Positions 2,152-39,697 of a stretch of DNA of 64,000 bases are shown one piece after another. The stretch is from contig JAGTXO010000004.1 in the NCBI GenBank assembly GCA_019448385.1, forward strand, positions 1,612,001 to 1,676,000, given 5' to 3'. A model generated the notes under the pieces. It saw only the letters and a list, made by a program, of their open reading frames with translations. It made no database searches and was not told where the DNA came from. Within the stretch, counting starts at the first letter, position 1; each line of letters begins with the position of its first letter. Origin of the DNA: Diacronema lutheri (Eukaryota > Haptophyta > Pavlovophyceae > Pavlovales > Pavlovaceae). The translations under genes were made by a program, and so were the position numbers.

Positions 2152-2290
2152 CACTGCACTCTCGTCAGCACTCAGCCGGGGCGAAATGCGAGGAGCGCCA
2201 TCTCGCACGGCACGGTGCGTCCGCCCCCACCATTGTTGCCATTCTCGACGGCGTCGTTCATGAGAGTCGGGCCCCGCTGAAACGGCCAAA

Positions 2291-5200
2291 ATGCCGCGCC
2301 GCCGGTTGTTCGTCGCCCTCGCCATTGTCGCCCTCGCGCGGGTCCTGCCAGCGAACGAACTGTACTGCGCCGACCCGAGCGCGGACAACTACAACGCGAC
2401 GCCCGCACCGGGCGCCAGCGCGAGCGCCGACTCGTGCGCCTACATTGGCTGCACCGACCCGGCGGCGTTCAACTACGACTCGAGCGCGACGGGCGGCAGT
2501 TCGCTCCGCTTCTGCTCCTACTCGCGGGGCATCCCCGTCGTCGGCTGTCGCGACCCGCTCGCCGACAACTTCGAATCGGCCGCGTGGGTGAACAACGCGT
2601 CGCTCTGCGACTACTGCGGCTGCCGCCAGCCCGGCGCGCTCAACTTTGACCCGAGCGCAACGTCCGGAAGTGACGTGCGCCTGTGCGTGTACGAGAGCCC
2701 CCGCCCGCCGCCGAGCCCGCCTAGCCCGCCGCCGCGGCTGCCGCCGAGCCCACCACCGAGCCCGCCAAGAGCGCCGCCAAGCCCGCCGCCCGCGCCGCCG
2801 CCGAGCCCGCCGCCGAGCCCGCCGCCGAGCCCGCCGAGCCCGCCGCCGAGCCCGCCGACCAGCCCGCCGCCCAGCCCTCCGCCCAGCCCGCCGCCAAGCC
2901 CGCCGCCAAGCCCGTCACCGCCAAGCCCGTCACCGCCAAGCCCGCCGCCACCCAGCCCGCCGCCACCGAGCCCGCTGCCACCCAGCCTGCCGCCCAGCCT
3001 GCCGCCCAGCCCGCCACCCAGCCCGCCGCCACCCAGCCCGCCGCCACCGAGCCCGCTGCCGCCCAGCCTGCCGCCCAGCCCGCCGCCCAGCCTGCCGCCC
3101 AGCCCGCCGCCCAGCCTGCCGCCCAGCCTGCCGCCAAGCCCACCGCTCAGGCCACCGCCCAGCCCGCCGCTTAGCCCGCCACCGAGCCCGCCGCCCCCCA
3201 GCCCGCCGCGAATGCCGCGAAGCCCACCGCCCCGCCTGCTACCGCGCCGTCCGCCACCGGGCCTGCCGCCGAGCTCGCCGCCCGCCCTGCCGCCCTTCCC
3301 GCCGCCCAGCCCAGTGCTGCCTGCGCCGCCGCCCGGGCCCCCGGCTCAGCCGCCGCGCCCGCCTCTCAGCCCGCCGCCGAGCTCGCCGCCGAGCCCGCCG
3401 CCGAGCCCGCCGCCGAGCCCGCCGCCCAGCTTGCCACCCAGCCCGCCGCCCAGCCCGCCGCCAAGCCCTCCGCCGAGCCTGCCGCCCAGCCCGCCGCCCA
3501 GCTTGCCACCCAGCCCTCCGCCCAGCCCGCCGCCCAGCCCGCCACCCGGGCTGCCGCCGAGCCCGCCGCCGAGCCCGCCGCCTCCCAGCCCACCGCCGAC
3601 GGCACCGCCGAGCCCGCCGCCGAGCCCGCCGCCCTCGCCGCCGCCCTCGCCGCCGCCCTCACCGCCGCCCAGCCCACCGCCGAACCCGCCGCCCGGTCCG
3701 CCGCCCAGCCCGCCGCCCAGCCCACCGCCAAGCCCACCACCCACCTCGCCGCCCGGTCCACCACCGAGCCCGCCGCCGAGTTCGCCGCCCCCGCGGCCGC
3801 CACAGCACCCGCCGCCGAGCCCGCCGCCGAGTCCGCCGCCGAGCGCGCCGCCTCGGCCGCCGCCCAGCCTACCGCCATTTCCGCCGCCGCGCCCACCGCC
3901 GAGCCCGCCGCCTGGTCGACCGCCCAGCCCGCCACCCAAGCCGCCACCGCGCGCGCCGCCGAGCCCGCCGCCCAGCCCGCCGCCCAGCCCGCCGCCGCCG
4001 CAGTCGCCGCCGCGCCCGCCTCCCAGCCCGCCGCCACCGCGCCCGCCGCCGCACCCGCCTCCCAGCCCGCCGCCGAGCCCGCCGCCGAGCCCGCCACGCG
4101 CACCTCCCAGCCCACCGCCCAGCCCGCCGCCGCCCTACCCGCCGCCGGCGCCGCCGTTCCCGCCGCCGCCGCCGTTCCCGCCGCCGAGCCCGCCGCCGCC
4201 GACACCGCCGCCACGGCCGCCGCCGCGCGCGCCGCCATCCCCACCGCCGTCACCGCCGCCGTCACAGCCGCCGCCTTCGCGCCCGCCAAGTCCGCCGCCA
4301 CGCTCACCGCCGAGCCCACCGCCGCCGCGCATGCCACCGCGCCCGCCGCCCAGCCCGCCACCGCCGAGCCCGCCGCCGAGCCCGCCGCCGAGCCCGCCGC
4401 GTGCGCCGCCTCCGTCGCCTCCGCCCTCGCCTGCGTGCACCGACCCCTTTGCGGACAACTTTGTGAACCAGAGCGCCGCATCGGTTACGCCCGACGCAAC
4501 GCTCTGCCGGTACACGGGCTGCACTGACCCGCTCGCCGCCAATTACGACCCGACTGCGACGGGCGGCAGCGCCGCGCGCCAGTGCCGCTATGCGCCACCG
4601 CCAAGGCTGCCCGCGCCGCCGCCCAGCGCGTGCGCCGACCCGCTCGCCGACAACTACGACCCGACATCGCCGGTGGGCAACGCGTCGAGCTTTGCGAGCT
4701 GCGCATTCTGCGGCTGCACGGACAGCGCCGCGCTCAACTTTGACGCGCGCGCGACGCGCGGCAGCGCGCAGCGGCAGTGCCGCTTCTCCAGCCCACCGCC
4801 CAGTCCCCCGCTCGCGGGTTCCTTTGAGTTCTGGGTGACCCTCGACCTCGAGATCGATCAGTTTGGCGCGGCCGCGCGCGCGCTCTGGCGGCGCGCGCTC
4901 GCGAACGGCACGGGCGTGCCCGCCGAGTGGTTCCGCGTCTCGGCGACCGAGCCCGCGTCCGTGCGCGTGCGCACGGTCCTCATCCTCACGCACAACGCGC
5001 TCGCCGCCGGCCTTGACCCGGCCGCGACGCTCGCGCGCGCGACGGCGGACGAGATGACGCGCTGGCTGCAGGCCGTCGGCGCTTCGTCAATCCGCGTGCT
5101 CACTCCACCGCAGCTCCTCCTCCCGCCATCGCCGCCGCCGCCGCCCGCCGTGCGCGCGCTCGTGCGGATGCGCGTCGCGGCCGGCCTGTCGCCATCCACC

Positions 5201-6845
5201 CTCGCCGCGCTCTTCCCGGCCGCTTTGGCGCCGAGCGCGCTCTTCGACGGCACGCTCGTGCCCGCGTTCTCGCCCGCCATCTTCGAGACGAACGTCGCCG
5301 CGGCGCTCGCGCTCGCCGACGCGTCCTCGGTGTCCGTCGCGCAGGCCGACGAGGGCCTGTCGACCGCGGAGGCGGAGTCGCTCTTCCCGCTCTCGGCGCC
5401 GTTTGCGCCGCTGCCCGCGCCACCGCCCGCGCTGATCGTGAGGCTCGTCTTCACGATCGCCGCGCACGGCGCGGTCGACCTCGCGCAGGCGGATGCGGCC
5501 GTCGACGCGCTCATCGCGCGCACGCGCGCGCGCTCGCTCGCAGTCGGCTGGCGCATCGCATGGTCGTCGGTGCGCATTTCGACGGCGCGGCCGGACGGCA
5601 CGCTGGCCGACGTCGACCTGAGCGCGCTGCCGGGCGCGGGTGCGGGCGGTGGTGGTGGTGGCGACAACGACGACGACGGTGGCGGTGGCGATGGTGGCGA
5701 CGCCGCGAGCGCGGCATCGGGCGCGGGCAGCGTGGCGCAGCAGCCCGGCTGGCAAACGCCGCTCGTCATCGCGCTCATCGCCGTCGGCTGCGCGCTCCTC
5801 GCGCTCGGCCTCTACGCGCTGTGCACGCAGCAGGGCGCGTGTCGGCTCGACTGCGGTTGCGCGCACTGCGCCTGCGGCACGGCCCCGCTGCCCGTTGCGC
5901 CGTACGAGGGCGGCCGCCGCTTCGTCGCGCGTGGCCGAGGGGCGGCGATCGGCGCGGACGCGCGCGCGCGCGACAGCTGCAGTGGAGGCGTGTGCGCTTC
6001 GGGCGGCTCGGCCTGCGTGGCCACGCCAAAGCGCGCCGACGGAAGCCCGTGGTCGCAGCCGCCCGTGCTCATCGGCGGCCAGATGGGGAGCGCGGGCTGT
6101 CGGAGCGTGCATGTGCGCGCACGCCGCGCCGCACCGTCGAATCGTCGGACCGTCGGACCGTCGGACCTCTGTGCTGACGCGCGCTGCCTTGCCCGCTGCC
6201 CACCTGCCCTGCCCGCTCTCTGGTCGCCGTGTGCTTGCGCAGGCACCACCCAGCTCGCAGCGCGCGCACCTCACCGAGCGCACGCCACGCCCGGCGCCGC
6301 TGCACGCCCAGCGCGACAACGCCTCCATGGCCGCCCTCCCACCGACGGTCGCGGCGGGCCCCGCGCCGTGGCTCAGCTCACCAGCGGCGAGACCCACACC
6401 GCCCAGCATGCCGCGCACCCTCGTGCTCGAGCTTCCGCCAGCCGCGCGATGCCGCAGCCCATCGGACGCGTGCTCGTTCGACGGCTCGTGCCGCGGCGCG
6501 CCGAGCGGGCCGCGCGAGCGCACCGCGGACGGCGCCGTGTCGCGCACGCCGCCCTCGAGCACCGCGGCGCGCAACCCACGGCGCGCGCGCGGGCGTGCCC
6601 CCTCCGACGCGGCAGCGCCCGGCGCCCTCGATGCCGGTCGGCCCGTCGGTCGTCGGCGGCCACGCGCGGCCGCGGCCGGAGCGGAACCTGAGCGCGCCGA
6701 CCTGGCCGAGGCTTTCGATTCAGCTGCCACCGCCCACGGCGGCGCGAGCACGAGCCAGCAGCGCCGGCGCGTGCGGCGCGCGCCTGCGCTTGGCGGCGCT
6801 AGCGACGGCGGTAGTTTGAACGATCTCGCCGCGGCCGCGCCCTAG
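2291..6845 (+). CDS. Pherophorin-like proline-rod glycoprotein with Cys cassettes and a membrane anchor
   Basis: Two exons (2291-6106 and 6243-6845; intron gtgcat...gcgcag, phase 0) give about 1,471 residues. The N-terminus, MPRRRLFVALAIVALARVLPA, is a signal peptide. Next come three Cys-containing cassettes of the form GCTDPAAFNYDSSATGG. Residues ~140-715 are an almost unbroken PPSPPP rod, a substrate for prolyl hydroxylation and arabinosylation in algal wall proteins. Four more cassettes follow the rod (CTDPFADNF, GCTDPLAANYDPTATGG and others), then a folded Ala-rich region and an acidic GGGGDNDDDGG linker. A hydrophobic helix (LVIALIAVGCALLALGLYALC, ~1158-1178) precedes a basic, probably cytosolic tail. 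I infer a cell-surface or wall-anchored fibrous protein. Cassettes of this type are widespread in secreted algal and bacterial proteins and have no known enzyme activity. Confidence 0.8.
2697..4430 (+). repeat. Ser-Pro-Pro coding repeat (proline rod)
   Basis: About 1.73 kb of degenerate 9- to 12-base units built on AGCCCGCCGCC encode SPPP, SPPPSP and variants (APP, RPP, LPP, TPP). Synonymous and Ser/Ala/Arg/Leu changes keep Pro at most positions, which suggests selection on the rod. All other frames of both strands stay open across it and are artefacts. Confidence 0.95.
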
Positions 6846-16119: not shown

Positions 16120-17004
16120 ATGGCGGCGAGAGCCGCGGGCGCGGCACGAGCATCTCTGTCGACTGGCTCTCGGCTGCCGTGGGCGCTGCGCCCGCCATCA
16201 GCCATCTGGCGCCACGCGCGCCTGCCGGCGTTTTGCCCGCCTTCCAGCCCGCCGCAGCCCGCCGCCAGCGTGTGCCGGCGCGCGGGCCGCTGGCTGTCGA
16301 GCCGAGCCGGCGACCTGTACGCCGCACTCGGCGTGGGCCGTCGCGCAACGACCGAGGAGATCAAGATGGCCTACTACCGCGAGGCGAAGAAGAACCACCC
16401 CGATCTGAACCCGTCGCGCGACGCCGCGATCCGCTTCCGGCAGGTGGCCGAGGCGTACGAGGTGCTCAAGGATCCGGCGCGGAGGCGATCATACGACCTC
16501 GGCGGCTCAGGCGCGCCCAGCGGCGGGATGGGCGGCTCGGCGGACTGGCAGGACGTGGATCCGATGCGCGTCTTCCGCACCGTGTGGCGCGACTTTGGCC
16601 TCGGCGACCTCGAGCTCTACCTCAAGCGCGTCAGTCAGGAGGGCACCGACGCGTTCGCGGCGGCGACGGACGGGCGGCGCGATTTTGGGCCTGCCAAGCG
16701 CTTCGCGTCGGATCACCGCGGGGTCATCCTCACGACGGTCGTCCCGCTCTTGCTCGTGCTGCGGTACCCCGCAGCTGCATTCGCTGCCGCGCGCGGCGGG
16801 CTGCTCGTGGCGCTTGGAGCGTTCCGTTTCATCCCGCACGAGCTGCGCTACCAGCTGCTCAGCAGGGCGTGGCTGGCAGCGGTCTCGTACCTCGAGCGGA
16901 TGAGCAAGGAGAGCGCCGGTTCGGAACGCCGCCCACGGCCGCCGTCGGGCCCTGGCAGCGGCGTGGGTGGCGACGGCGGCGAGCAAACTGGGCGCCGGCC
17001 TTGA
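16120..17004 (+). CDS. J-domain (DnaJ/Hsp40) protein, probably mitochondrial
   Basis: One exon of 294 residues. Residues 1-60 are rich in Arg, Ala and Ser with no acidic residues (MAARAAGAARASLSTGSRLP), typical of an organellar targeting peptide. Residues ~64-125 are a J-domain: DLYAALGVGRRATTEEIKMA, then the HPD tripeptide at 93-95 and EAYEVLKDPARRRSYD. A short Gly-rich segment follows, then WQDVDPMRVFRTVWRDFGLGD and a hydrophobic stretch VILTTVVPLLLVLRYPAAAF that could be a membrane helix. No zinc-finger or C-terminal DnaJ substrate domain, so it is a type III J-protein recruiting an organellar Hsp70. I chose the Met at 16120 because an upstream in-frame ATG at 16024 lies inside the divergent SAP gene. 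Confidence 0.82.
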   Translation: MAARAAGAARASLSTGSRLPWALRPPSAIWRHARLPAFCPPSSPPQPAASVCRRAGRWLSSRAGDLYAALGVGRRATTEEIKMAYYREAKKNHPDLNPSRDAAIRFRQVAEAYEVLKDPARRRSYDLGGSGAPSGGMGGSADWQDVDPMRVFRTVWRDFGLGDLELYLKRVSQEGTDAFAAATDGRRDFGPAKRFASDHRGVILTTVVPLLLVLRYPAAAFAAARGGLLVALGAFRFIPHELRYQLLSRAWLAAVSYLERMSKESAGSERRPRPPSGPGSGVGGDGGEQTGRRP

Positions 17005-34130: not shown

Positions 34131-34863
34131 ATGGCGGGCGCGAGCGGCGCGCTGTTGTGGGGCATCGGCCTCGCCCTCGCGCTCTGGCCTCAGCCGGGTT
34201 TGGCAGTGGATGCGACCGACCTGTACGCGATCCTTGGTGTCGCGCCCGACGCGACGGCCGCCGAGATCAAAAAGGCCTTCCGCTCGCGCGCCGCGTCGCT
34301 GCACCCGGACAAGTGCGTCGCCGATTGCGCGCGCGCCGACGAGCGGATGGCCGAGCTGAACCACGCGTACGAGACGCTCTCCTCGCCGGACCGGCGTGAG
34401 CGCTACGACGCGTACGGCACCGAGGCTCCGGACCTCGAGGCCCTCTTCCGCGTGCCCCCCGCCGTTGCGTACGCGGATTCGCACGGTGCGCGCGACACGC
34501 CTTGGTGCCGGCCGGCCGTGCCGCGCCTGCCGTGGAGCACGTCGCCCACGCGCGCCCCACGCCACGTGCTCACCGCGGCCATCCTGCCCGGCCTGCCCTT
34601 CCCCCAATACTCGTCCACCTGACGCGGGCTGTGCGCAGTGCTTAATCTGCGATCGACGGCACACGCGCGCGCACCGCCGCGCGGTGGCGAGCGCACGGTG
34701 TGGCTCATCGCGCTGTACATGCAGGGCTGCGGCCCGTGCCACCAGCTCGTGCCCGAGCTCAAGGCCACCGCCGCGCGGCTTGCCGGCGTCGTGCGTGTCG
34801 GTGCTCTCGACTGCTCGTTGCACAGTGCGCAGTGCGAGGTGTGGCGCATGTCCTGCAGTCCAA

Positions 34864-34896
<33 letters not shown>

Positions 34897-37800
34897 GGTG
34901 CTCTCGACTGCTCGTTGCACAGTGCGCAGTGCGAGGTGTGGCGCATGCCCTGCAGTCGAAGGGGGGGGGGGGGGGGGGGGGGGGGACGGAATGTGCGCGT
35001 GAGACCGCCTTCACCTTCCCCCCCCCCCTCTACCCCCCCCCCCCCCCCCCCTTTCCCGCTGTGTGTGTGCCAGGAGCTGCGTGTGAGCCGCTTCCCGCAC
35101 ATCGTCGCCTTCGCGCTCAGGGAGAGCGTCGGCAGGCGCGTGGCCGTGCACTACGAGGCAGCGCTCGAGGCGAAGCGCATCGTCGAGTGGGCGCTCTCGC
35201 TGCTGCCGCGGGATGCCGGCCGAGCGCAGCTGAGCGCGGCCGGCCTCGAGGCCAACGGGTCGGCGGCGGCGGCGGTGTACGAGGCGGTTGTATCGGGCGG
35301 GGCCGCTCGCCTTGTCTTCTTCGCAGATGGCAGCGGAGGTGGAGCGGTGGACGCGGCGGAGGTCGCAATCGCGGCGGCGCTCCTTTTCAATTCGCTTGTG
35401 CGCCTTGGCTCCATTGAATGCGCGCCAGACGCGCACGATGCCGGCGATATCGGAGGCGGAGGCGGAGGCGGAGGCGGAGGCGGAGGCGGAGGCGGTGTCT
35501 GCGCGCGGCTCGGCGTGCGCTTTGCGCCGTCAGCGTGGCTGTGGCGCGGGGACGGCTCGGCTGGCATTGAGTACGACGGCAAGATGCTTGGCGCAAGAGT
35601 CGCGGCGTGGGCGGTTGAGGCCGTCGCCGGGGTCGCCGCGCGGCCGCTCGCGACCGCCACGCAGATCGCCGCCGCGGCGCAGCGCGCGGCCGCACGCCGT
35701 GGCGGTGGCGGTAGCGGCGGTCGCGGTGGCGGCGGCCTGCTTCTGCTCGGCAGCCGCGCGGATGCGCTCGCGCACGGCGCGTCCCTCCGCCTCGACGTGC
35801 TCCGGCTGCGCGCGGCGCTCGGCGCGGAGGCGGACGAGGGCGCGGCCACGGGTGCGGGCGCGGGCGCGTGGGCAGACCCGGCGTGCTCGGATTCGGACGA
35901 GTCGTGCGAGCGCTGGGCGGAGCTGGGCGAGTGCGACAGGAACGCGCCCTTCATGGCGCGCTCGTGCGCGGCGGCGTGTGGGCTGTGCGAGCGCGTGGCC
36001 GCGCCCGTGCTCGCCATCGTCGACTGCGACGCGCTCGTCGCCGCGCACGCGGAGCCCGCGCGCATCGCGGCGGCGCTCAACAGCGATGCGACGGGTGGCG
36101 TGCCGAGCGTGTTGGACGGGCTCGAGGCCGCGCACGTGACTGCGCTCTGCGGCGGCGGCGGCGGCGCTCCGCCCGGCGCTCTGCTTGGCGTGGTGCCACA
36201 ACTCGGCGGTAGCGGCGGGTGGTGGTGGCTGCCGTCGGGGGGCGGCGGGGCGGGCGGGTGGGCGGATGGAGGCACGGACGCGGACACGCCGTCGGGCGGA
36301 CGGCCCGGCGCGGTGCGCACGCCGCCGAGCCGGGCCGTGTCGACGCGCCGCCTAAGCAGCGACGCGTTGCTCCACTGGGCGGCGGCCGGCGCGCGCGCGG
36401 CGCGGCGGGTGGCGATCACGGCTCGGCCTGACGCGCTGCTCGCGCTGCTGGGCGGAGGCGAGCAGCACGAGCAGCGCGAGCAGCGCGAGACCGAGAATGC
36501 GCATGGCGACCTGACCCTTTTACTCCTCACCAACGGTGCTACGTGCGCGCACTGCGCGGACGCGGAGGATGCGTTGCTCGCCGCTGCTGCCGCTGCCGCT
36601 GCCGCCCCGACCCCTCCGACGGGCCGCGACCGCCTCGCGGCCGGGCCGGAGCAACCGCCGCCGCTGCTCGCCCTCGGCAACGGCTCGCACACCGTCACGG
36701 CACGTGCGTGGCTCGCGCAGTGTGACAGCTCCGACACGATGGCGGCGGCATGCCGCATGGTGCTTGGCGCCGCGGCAGGCGCGAGCGGCGGGCGCGCGTC
36801 TGAGCGGCCCGCGCTGGCGCTGCCACAATTGGTCGCCGTGCGGCATGCGGACGGGCGGCTCGTGCGCAGATCGGCCGGCGCGGCGCTCGACGCGGCCTCG
36901 CTCGTTGCCTTCGCCCACGCCGCGGCCGTCTCGGAGGTGCGCGAGTGCGCGGATGGCGCGGCGCTCGAGACGCTGCTCGGCGAGGCGTGCGTGCGCGCGG
37001 ACGGTGCGCGGACGGGCGGCGGCGCGTTCGTGCTCTTCTCCGCCGCGCAGCCCGGATGGTGCCCGCCATGCGACGCGCTCGACGAGCCCTTCGCCGCGGC
37101 GAGCGCCGAGCTGTCCGCCGCGCGCTACGCGGTCGGCCGCTTCGGCTGCGACGCGGGCGCTACCGCGCAGCACGTGTGCTCGCTCGCGCGCGTCGACGGG
37201 CTGCCGACGGTCGTCTTCTTCCCCTGCGCCGCGCGCGAGACGGGCGAGACGGGCGCGGGCGCGTTGCACGCGCTGCTCCGGACAGGCCACGCGTACGAGC
37301 CGGACGAGGACGACGAGGACGATTCGACCCTCGAACGCAGCTTTGCGCCCGCGCGGCTCGTCGAGTTTGCGCAGGGCGGCGCGTGGGCGCCACCGCCCCT
37401 CGTGCCGCTCGACGGCGGCAAGGGGCTGTGGGCGGCGCTTGTCAAGCCGAGCGGCCGAACGGCGGCCGGCTGCCGCGACTGGGCGCCTCTCTCGTGCGCG
37501 CTGCGCGGCAGCGGCGCGTGCGCGGACATGGCGTCGAGCAGCGAGTGCGCGGCCACGTGCGGCCTCTGCGCGGCGGGGCGCCCGACGGTGCGCACACGCC
37601 GCCGCCGCCGCCGCCACCGCCGCCACCATGCCGTGCCGTGCCGCGTGCGCGCGCGCGCGCGTCTGTGCGCCCATGCGCTCACGCGCCTGCGCGCCGTGGG
37701 TGCCCTCCCCTCCCCCCTCCCCCCTTCCGCCCCTCCCCTCCGCGCACCAGACGTGGGTCGTCTCCTTCACCACGCGCGAGGCGCAGTGCCGCAGTTGCGC

Positions 37801-39697
37801 GCGGCTGCGACGGCAGTTGGGCGGCGCCATCGGAGCAGCGCGCTCACAGCTCGTGCAGCGGGGCCTCGACCCATTCTCGCTGCAGTGGGGCGAGGTGCAG
37901 TGCACGGACCGCACCTCCGCAGAGGCCGCCGCCGCGTGCACGCTCGCGGCCGTGCGCGCGCTGCCGCACGTGGTCATCGTGCCGGCCGGGGCGACGGACG
38001 ACCGCGTGCTGCGCGACCCCGCCTTCCAGCTGCGCGCGCCCGTCGATTCGAATCAGCTCGCGCGCTGGGCGGTGGCCGTGCATGCGCGCGCGCTCGGCGC
38101 CGCAGCACCGCTCGGCGCGCGCCAGCCGCCGGCGAGCGGTGCTGCGGCGGCGGACGCGGCGGACGCGGCGGACGCGGCGGACGCGGCGGACGCGGCGGAC
38201 GCGGCGGACGCGGCGGACGCGGCGGACGCGGCGGACGCGGCGGACGCGGCGGACGCGGCGGACGCGGCGGACGCGGCGGACGTGGCGGACGTGGCGGACG
38301 CGGCGGACGCGGCGGACGTGGCGGACGCGGCGGACGTGGCGGACGCGGCGGACGCGGCGGACGTGGCGGACGCGGCGGACGTGGCGGACGCGGCGGACGT
38401 GGCGGACGCGGCGGACGTGGCGGACGCGGCGGACGCGGCGGACGCGGCGGACGTGGCGGACGTGGCGGACGTGGCGGACGTGGCGGACGTGGCGGACGCG
38501 GCGGACGTGGCGGACGCGGCGGACGCGGCGGACGCGGCGGACGTGGCGGACGCGGCGGACGTGGCGGACGCGGCGGACGTGGCGGACGCGGCGGACGCGG
38601 CGGACGCGGCGGACGTGGCGGACGTGGCGGACGTGGCGGACGTGGCGGACGTGGCGGACGCGGCGGACGTGGCGGACGTGGCGGACGTGGCGGACGCGGC
38701 GGACGTGGCGGACGCGGCGGACGTGGCGGACGCGGCGGACGCGGCGGACGTGGCGGACGCGGCGGACGTGGCGGACGCGGCGGACGTGGCGGACGCGGCG
38801 GACGCGGCGGACGCGGCGGACGTGGCGGACGTGGCGGACGTGGCGGACGTGGCGGACGTGGCGGCGGACGCGGCGGACGTGGCGGACGCGGCGGACGCGG
38901 CGGACGCGGCGGACGTGGCGGACGCGGCGGACGTGGCGGACGCGGCGGACGTGGCGGACGCGGCGGACGCGGCGGACGCGGCGGACGTGGCGGACGTGGC
39001 GGACGTGGCGGACGTGGCGGACGTGGCGGACGCGGCGGACGCGGCGGACGTGGCGGACGCGGCGGACGCGGCGGACGCGGCGGACGTGGCGGACGCGGCG
39101 GACGTGGCGGACGCGGCGGACGTGGCGGACGCGGCGGACGCGGCGGACGCGGCGGACGTGGCGGACGTGGCGGACGTGGCGGACGTGGCGGACGTGGCGG
39201 ACGTGGCGGACGTGGCGGACGTGGCGGACGCGGCGGACGCGGCGGACGTGGCGGACGCGGCGGACGCGGCGGACGCGGCGGACGTGGCGGACGCGGCGGA
39301 CGCGGCGGACGCGGCGGACGCGGCGGCGAGGCTCGAGGAGGCGCAGGCGGTGGAGAGGGCGGCTGAGGCGCGGCGGGCGGCGGCCGAGGAGCGGGCGGCG
39401 GCCGAGGAGCGGGCGGCGGTCGAGTTGGCGGCGGCCGAGCGGGCGGCCGTAGAGCGAGCAGCGGCGCAGCGGGCAGCGGCACAGCGGGCAGCGGCGGAAG
39501 CGGCGGCGGCTGTGGCGAGCGCGGCGGCGCAGGCGACGGCTTTGCCTCCCGACCTGCGCGAGCTGCGCGCGTCGGAATTGCGCAGGCTCGCTGATCAGCA
39601 TGGCGTCGACTGCAGCCGGTGCGTTGAGCGAGCCGACTGGGAGCGAGAGGTGGCGCGCGTACTCGCGCTTGGCGGCGGCACCCATGACGAGCTGTGA
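34131..39697 (+). CDS. ER-lumenal J-domain / multi-thioredoxin / ShKT / MANF-C protein with HDEL
   Basis: Four exons, 34131-34485, 34639-34838, 35074-37587 and 37751-39697, give 1,671 residues. A signal peptide (ALLWGIGLALALWPQPGLA) leads into a J-domain with HPD at 58-60. A thioredoxin-like fold follows with CGPC at 149-152, as in ERdj5. Exon 3 adds a ShKT-type Cys domain (~456-491, CSDSDESC...CAAACGLC), a CAHC motif (~675), a CPPC thioredoxin domain (~847) and a second ShKT (~984-1016). Exon 4 has a CRSC domain (~1036), then the Ala-Asp repeat (~1157-1550), a charged helix (RAAEARRAAAEERAAAEERA) and a SAP-like module LRASELRRLADQHGVDCSRC resembling the MANF/CDNF C-terminus. It ends GGGTHDEL, a classic ER-retrieval signal. 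Likely role: BiP co-chaperone coupled to disulfide reduction or exchange. The ShKT units are structural Cys modules found in many enzymes; nothing suggests a toxin. Confidence 0.85.
34799..34985 (+). repeat. Duplicated exon end plus 5' splice site with twin poly-G runs
   Basis: ggtgctctcgactgctcg and the following ~50 bases, including the exon 2 end and its donor cgag/gtgtgg, occur at about 34799 and again at about 34896. Each copy is followed by poly-G: 32 G at 34864-34895 and 25 G at 34961-34985. Poly-C runs (to 35051) precede the acceptor gtgtgccag at 35073. Confidence 0.9.
38149..39328 (+). repeat. 9-base tandem repeat (GCGGACGYG)n encoding Ala-Asp-Ala/Val
   Basis: About 131 copies of GCGGACGCG or GCGGACGTG within exon 4 of the ER protein, with one 6-base partial unit near 38863. 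The only variable base is the C/T at position 8. The first 14 or so units are all C; after that C and T types alternate in a recurring higher-order pattern. All six frames are open, but only the Ala-Asp frame connects to the thioredoxin and MANF-C parts. Confidence 0.95.

Follow-up and report, generated by a model that had tools for sequence, protein, structure and literature searches.

In a 64,000-nucleotide stretch of the haptophyte Diacronema lutheri (contig JAGTXO010000004.1, positions 1,612,001 to 1,676,000; hereafter the window), we found a gene whose predicted product resembles ERdj5 but has additional ShKT inserts and ends in a MANF-C-like tail. Read from its N-terminus, the chain comprises a leader, a J-domain with an HPD motif, a thioredoxin (Trx) module with CGPC, an ShKT module, modules with CAHC and CPPC, a second six-cysteine module and a module with CRSC; these are followed by an Ala-rich repeat linker, a MANF-C/SAP-like module with a CxxC motif and a terminal HDEL. 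The chain, the order of its modules, their conservation in a second protein (P0045) and the similarity to both ERdj5 and the C-terminal part of MANF are established by this analysis. All the motifs listed in a preliminary description of this DNA, that is, the leader, HPD, CGPC, CAHC, CPPC, CRSC, the two six-cysteine frames and HDEL, are present. J-domain, thioredoxin, ShKT and MANF-C-like modules and HDEL do stand in one chain, as that description had claimed, both in the window gene and in P0045, where a single open reading frame (ORF) carries them. With a leader at one end and HDEL at the other, the product of the window gene would be located in the endoplasmic reticulum (ER).

P0045 was obtained in a search with residues 25-205 (J-domain to Trx1), in which six proteins among 6972 candidates matched at E <=0.001. 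It had an E-value of 7.4e-54 and was the only one of the six to list Trx and ShK domains, the other five listing DnaJ but neither of these. The protein represents a cluster of four sequences (jgi, mmetsp), with one contig of 3706 bases and one name that includes 'type:complete'. Its 1176 residues are arranged as leader, J, CGPC, ShKT, CALC, CAPC, six-Cys, CGLC, short linker, CSRC and HDEL. Over 1118 aligned positions, the two proteins have 520 residues in common (46.5%); in this alignment, the C-terminal module was wrongly set against the repeat. Their C-terminal modules share 54% identity, and the two sequences are divergent enough to stem from different species. A search with residues 101-1122 gave no relative at E <=0.001 among 7982 candidates, a result that says little because the candidates were chosen by shared words, which favours close relatives. 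Neither search returned an annotated D. lutheri protein for this gene from a database that includes at least one protein of this species, and the public gene model may be split, broken or of different length; the annotation of this species drew on three RNA-seq libraries (PMC8379373). A full-text search of the openly licensed literature found no paper on an ERdj5-type J protein joined to a MANF/SAP-type module, and among the papers listed in a broader literature search, no title or abstract opening concerned such an architecture.

P0045 also bears on whether the window sequence represents one gene. The Ala-rich linker is encoded by a 9-base tandem array that is open in all six frames, so that the reading frame alone cannot tie Trx4 to the C-terminal module; only the homology to P0045 does. 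The chain might thus be an artefact of assembly or annotation, or comprise two distinct genes fused across the array, and poly-G tracts and a 97-base duplication in and beside intron 2 could point the same way. Such a fusion is nevertheless highly improbable, as P0045 carries the entire order, including CSRC and HDEL, in a 1176-residue ORF without any array, and one member of its cluster is named by its source as a complete MMETSP transcript ORF. Two genes joined by a repeat were therefore rejected; where the preliminary description had raised the case of two separate genes, one ORF of matching order was found. Since the array is missing from P0045, it is probably a lineage-specific expansion of the linker.

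According to excerpts of the respective papers, ERdj5 consists of J, Trx1, Trxb1, Trxb2, Trx2 and a C-terminal cluster Trx3-Trx4, with CxxC motifs in four of the modules (PMC7763558), belongs to the ancestral eukaryotic ER set (PMC7016017) and, together with BiP, reduces the disulfides of misfolded clients (PMC10591012). Compared as a single stretch with the ERdj5 structure 3apq, the J-Trx1 region scored 73.7 bits in the window gene (residues 30-199) and 79.4 bits in P0045, versus 52.9 and 54.8 bits, respectively, with the best plain J-protein. Among solved structures, residues 1-311 of the window gene matched ERdj5 at 4e-45 and 8.4e-45, 3apq at 1.9e-19 and a plain DnaJ at 4.1e-13 (14 matches up to 1e-10). 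For P0045, the top of the best 60 of 195 matches up to E 0.1 was taken by two full-length ERdj5 sequences (1.7e-45 and 1.9e-45), with 3apq at 1.3e-21 and a plain DnaJ at 3.6e-14. When only a single collinear stretch was counted against full-length ERdj5, the scores were 60.5 bits for the window gene (residues 29-199, in collinear register with 5ayk) and 74.6 bits for P0045 (residues 17-295); the latter stretch enters the first part of the b1 counterpart, and that of the window gene stops at 199 or 228. Like ERdj5/DNAJC10, the window gene product has a leader, an N-terminal HPD J-domain with a thioredoxin next to it, four CxxC modules and a KDEL/HDEL-type end; the four CxxC modules, counted besides the C-terminal one, are found in P0045 as well. 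Unlike ERdj5/DNAJC10, it adds two ShKT-type inserts, a long Ala-rich repeat linker and the MANF-C-like tail, its second b-module is unrecognised, and the CAHC and CRSC modules are unconfirmed as thioredoxins. The architecture had been described as novel; the combination is real, but at 73.7 versus 52.9 bits it is better termed ERdj5/DNAJC10-like with additions than wholly new.

The internal modules were recognised to different degrees. ShKT module 1 passes the cut-off of the Pfam ShK family (PF01549; 32.4 versus 20.9 bits), whereas the second six-cysteine module had no Pfam match in the window pieces and is assigned from its cysteine pattern and its conservation in P0045; of the two ShKT modules in the preliminary description, then, the first is borne out by Pfam (1.4e-7) and the second by pattern and relative. 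The CAHC module matched nothing in Pfam (window pieces) or among solved structures, and because of this its thioredoxin assignment follows from the cysteine pattern alone. The P0045 counterpart of the CPPC module (residues 786-856) matched Thioredoxin_2 at 5.4e-8 in Pfam. For the CRSC module, no Pfam match was obtained in the window pieces, and the cysteine pattern and conservation in P0045 argue for it; its counterpart in P0045 matched OST3_OST6 in Pfam at 0.0009 and 19.2 bits, under the 27-bit cut-off. With a profile of the CRSC module, a thioredoxin appeared among solved structures only at a non-significant E of 0.35, and profiles of the CAHC module and of the b1-like stretch gave no significant thioredoxin there. 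The product of exon 3 folded alone had a mean pLDDT of 36.7, which is uninformative and was not used.

Two solved-structure searches with the C-terminal module placed MANF or CDNF on top (7.5e-4 and 1.1e-4), and MANF/CDNF made up the nine best of 11 and the nine best of 14 matches, counting 2rqy, which is labelled 'putative uncharacterized protein'. In Pfam, ARMET_C was matched at 0.0017 with a piece of 122 amino acids and at 0.00031 and 20.5 bits with one of 55 amino acids, the cut-off being 23.5 bits; in P0045 it scored 15 bits, and ARMET_N had no match in the window pieces or in P0045. Because the ARMET_C cut-off was missed, we file the gene only as a carrier of a MANF-C-like module and not as a MANF; the ARMET_C and ARMET_N results lower the case for its being a MANF, not the case for a tail that works like MANF-C. 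When the C-terminal module was shuffled 20,000 times, its MANF-C profile score was never attained, and among 718 ORFs of the window that profile gave one match under the inclusion threshold and three others at E 4.4 to 8.1. With a structure model built without MANF sequences, Foldseek ranked MANF/CDNF first, though weakly, and so did VIA-align, the further rows listed by the latter being emerin, Rho and a few weaker ones. The structural match to MANF/CDNF expected from the preliminary description thus exists in rank but is statistically weak. Like MANF/CDNF, the protein has a C-terminal SAP-like module with CxxC, the three BiP-contact positions described below and an ER retrieval-type end; unlike them, it has no ARMET_N match, its module is fused to a J-domain protein disulfide isomerase (J-PDI), and its ARMET_C score is under the cut-off. 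That the tail is instead a generic SAP-like helix-extended-helix, gained independently and without MANF ancestry, appears improbable: ARMET_C was listed and no SAP family was, up to E 10 (HMMER filters drop many weak matches), both CxxC cysteines are present in a secreted, HDEL-bearing context, no solved sequence other than MANF/CDNF (and 2rqy) matched under E 0.5, and leader-bearing MANF-C proteins that stand alone are encoded in the genomes of D. lutheri and others.

In mouse MANF, according to an excerpt of the structural study, R133, K138 and E153 contact the nucleotide-binding domain of BiP; R133E and E153A bind too weakly for a fit and are both inactive in inhibiting ADP release; and the SAP domain binds ADP-BiP and slows nucleotide exchange through a surface that is also the predicted J-protein contact (PMC6358605). 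At the positions of R133, K138 and E153, both the window gene and P0045 have R, R and E in a gap-free register. The contact residues were placed on the solved sequence by letters and spacing, and the register of the structural alignment agrees (model 10 to chain 130). Among 36 MANF-C rows, position 133 is R in 20 and K in 16, position 138 is R in 31 and K in five, and position 153 is E throughout; column counts give both CxxC cysteines in 20 of the 36, and in the other 16 modules T and L or M replace them. On the partner side, the genome encodes a probable BiP (L028), so called because of its leader and its sequence, in which the positions of N200, T203, E217, D238 and N239 are occupied by N, T, E, D and N. 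Another ER-type Hsp70, encoded on the minus strand of contig 85 (L031), ends in KEEL and has V at 217 and S at 239; it might be a BiP not subject to control of the MANF type. In two cytosolic-type Hsp70s (L029 and L030), positions 238 and 239 are both E, and the letters at 200/203 are displaced by a one-residue insertion. These contact residues suggest that the MANF-like module would bind BiP. Alternatively, the SAP-like tail of an ERdj5-type reductase might bind something other than the BiP nucleotide cleft (protein or lipid) or only aid retention. One published study concerns the binding of sulfatide by MANF from C. elegans and humans (PMC5832864). In addition, the SAP module of an RRM protein that is putatively nuclear (L019, contig 5) reads S, R and E at the three positions, with S at 133, so that a basic residue and Glu at 138/153 are by themselves no proof of BiP binding. 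We consider this alternative rather unlikely, given that two proteins only 46% identical overall have both retained the CxxC and every one of the three contact residues, and that the partner residues are conserved in the probable BiP.

Several observations weigh against an ERdj5-type co-chaperone with a MANF-type tail that holds BiP. No significant thioredoxin match was obtained for the CAHC or the CRSC module, and the 158-bit totals for full-length ERdj5 sum several ERdj5 thioredoxins on the one Trx1 of the query. Other J-Trx families may have no solved structure, the likeness to ERdj5 being drawn from solved matches and not from a tree. As for the tail, ARMET_C stays under the curated Pfam cut-off in both proteins, and Foldseek gave no E-value better than 0.54 for MANF/CDNF. 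Moreover, the putative nuclear RRM protein equals the P0045 tail on the MANF-C profile (25.6 bits each; 28.8 bits for the window module). The best families for its SAP are RNF34L-like and SAP, not ARMET_C; it had been considered as an ER relative after an ARMET_C match on contig 5, and was dropped as an RRM-type protein.

With moderate confidence, we favour a co-chaperone with reductase function of the ERdj5 type, to which a MANF-type module has been appended that may hold ADP-state BiP after J-triggered hydrolysis. J-domains are described as stimulating hydrolysis (PMC7763558). In such a protein, the J-domain would recruit ATP-bound BiP and trigger hydrolysis, upon which BiP would clamp a misfolded, disulfide-tangled client, and the CxxC thioredoxin modules would cut or shuffle the client disulfides. 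The MANF-type SAP module, on its long flexible linker, would then enter the Ia-IIa cleft of ADP-bound BiP and slow nucleotide exchange, giving a longer BiP hold while the thioredoxins work; the linker would provide reach, and HDEL would return the co-chaperone to the ER. That both ends bind BiP, that the protein acts as a reductase and that catching precedes holding are inferences. The ShKT modules might bind clients or partners. It is also conceivable, and we propose this more tentatively, that one chain unites an accelerator of the BiP ATPase (J) and an exchange brake (MANF-type SAP) around disulfide-reducing modules, as a built-in cycle of catch, cut and hold in which the BiP surface would be shared in turn.

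Positions of the gene and its modules are given in the table below. The gene model was guided by homology to P0045 and replaces an earlier one (exon 1 to 34451, exon 2 from 34692), which was superseded after the P0045 alignment; over the intron 1 junction, VTNLQS of P0045 pairs with VLNLRS of the window gene. Intron 3, between exons 3 and 4, has 163 bases and is in phase 0. The introns had been described as in-phase, which is correct for introns 2 and 3 (phase 0) but not for intron 1, placed in phase 1 by homology. The GC content by codon position in exons 1-3 and the Trx4 part is lowest at position 2 and highest at position 3, by 0.23 to 0.36; intron 2 follows this order with a difference of just 0.05, introns 1 and 3 depart from it, and in the Ala-rich tail the minimum is at position 2 and the maximum at position 1. 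A 97-base tandem duplication (window 34800-34985), accompanied by poly-G tracts in or beside intron 2, covers the end of exon 2 including the donor site and reaches into the intron.

Features of the J-Trx-ShKT-MANF-C-like gene in the window (aa, amino acids)
Feature	Position	Strand	Basis and remarks
Whole gene	34131..39697	+	Four exons, 1671 codons then stop; GT-AG introns, homology-guided by P0045
Exons 1-4	34131-34485, 34639-34838, 35074-37587, 37751-39697	+	One open chain when joined
Intron 1	34486-34638	+	153 bases, phase 1; ends placed via P0045 alignment
Intron 2	34839-35073	+	235 bases, phase 0; splits Trx1 module
Signal-peptide-like N-terminus (aa 1-25)	34131..34205	+	Sequence reading; equivalent leader in P0045
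J-domain with HPD (aa 30-102; HPD at aa 58)	34218..34436	+	PF00226 6.2e-21; 68% identity to P0045
Trx1 with CGPC (34728-34739)	34695..35208	+	PF00085 8e-6 on exon 2; ERdj5 match; 59% identity to P0045
Thioredoxin-like stretch without CxxC (b1-like)	35305..35625	+	51% identity to P0045
ShKT module 1	35884..35988	+	PF01549 1.4e-7; solved structure 2mcr 4.7e-5; 60% identity to P0045
CAHC module (36544-36555)	36511..36930	+	CALC in P0045; 55% identity to P0045
Trx with CPPC (37060-37071)	37015..37380	+	CAPC in P0045; PF00085 0.0037, under cut-off; 41% identity to P0045
Six-Cys ShKT-type module 2	37471..37569	+	Six Cys also in P0045, 64% identity
CRSC module (37787-37798), Trx4 part	37751..38077	+	CGLC in P0045; 47% identity to P0045
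9-base tandem array	38147..39326	+	About 131 copies (TRF); reads (Ala-Asp-Ala/Val)n; not in P0045 (alignment)
MANF-C/SAP-like module with CSRC (39611-39622)	39551..39670	+	Solved-structure searches, Foldseek, VIA-align; ARMET_C under cut-off
Terminal HDEL (ER retrieval signal)	39683..39694	+	Sequence; P0045 ends HDEL too

The genome was scanned together with the window (43,492,796 bases in 103 contigs), and at least 82 DnaJ, 60 Thioredoxin and 46 ShK matches were listed, each at its own E limit. Among the matches listed, all three families lie within 10 kb of one another solely at the window locus; DnaJ and Thioredoxin are paired within that distance at the window gene and also on contig 71 and contig 9, but the neighbours on these two contigs were judged from their ORFs to be separate genes. 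A second protein with a J-domain and two ShKT modules is encoded on the minus strand of contig 86 (L018). It resembles the window gene in these modules and in its end, KDEV, but differs in having no Thioredoxin or ARMET_C match in Pfam; its solved-structure matches are confined to the J-domain, the best being DNAJB1, with ERdj5 matched there only. Elsewhere in the window, a second DnaJ match was found at about 16312-16497 (1.0e-19), and a long ORF at 2264-6691 is rich in Pro, has repeats that contain Cys and includes a hydrophobic segment, overlapping the cysteine-rich client that had been suggested at 2291-6845.

The genome also encodes a separate MANF (L020; ARMET_N 2.4e-19, ARMET_C 1.7e-12) and, on contig 4, a stand-alone MANF-C gene (L021) that corresponds to the D. 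lutheri protein P0016 (KFE25_007382). Stand-alone haptophyte MANF-C proteins of the P0016 type share with the window gene a MANF-C module behind a leader, and P0016 ends in KEEL; they differ in being small (P0016 has 140 amino acids) and in having no J or Trx. A segment resembling ILASLKGMPGM is found in all eight of the small MANF-C proteins P0016 and P0038-P0044, and the named sources of such proteins include D. lutheri and Pavlovales sp. CCMP2436. The natural fusion in the window gene, in which a MANF-C-like module is joined to a J-PDI resembling ERdj5, suggests that the MANF-C module is mobile and occurs outside MANF/CDNF. It would also allow a direct test of sequential J-stimulated hydrolysis and MANF-type inhibition of nucleotide exchange on one BiP.

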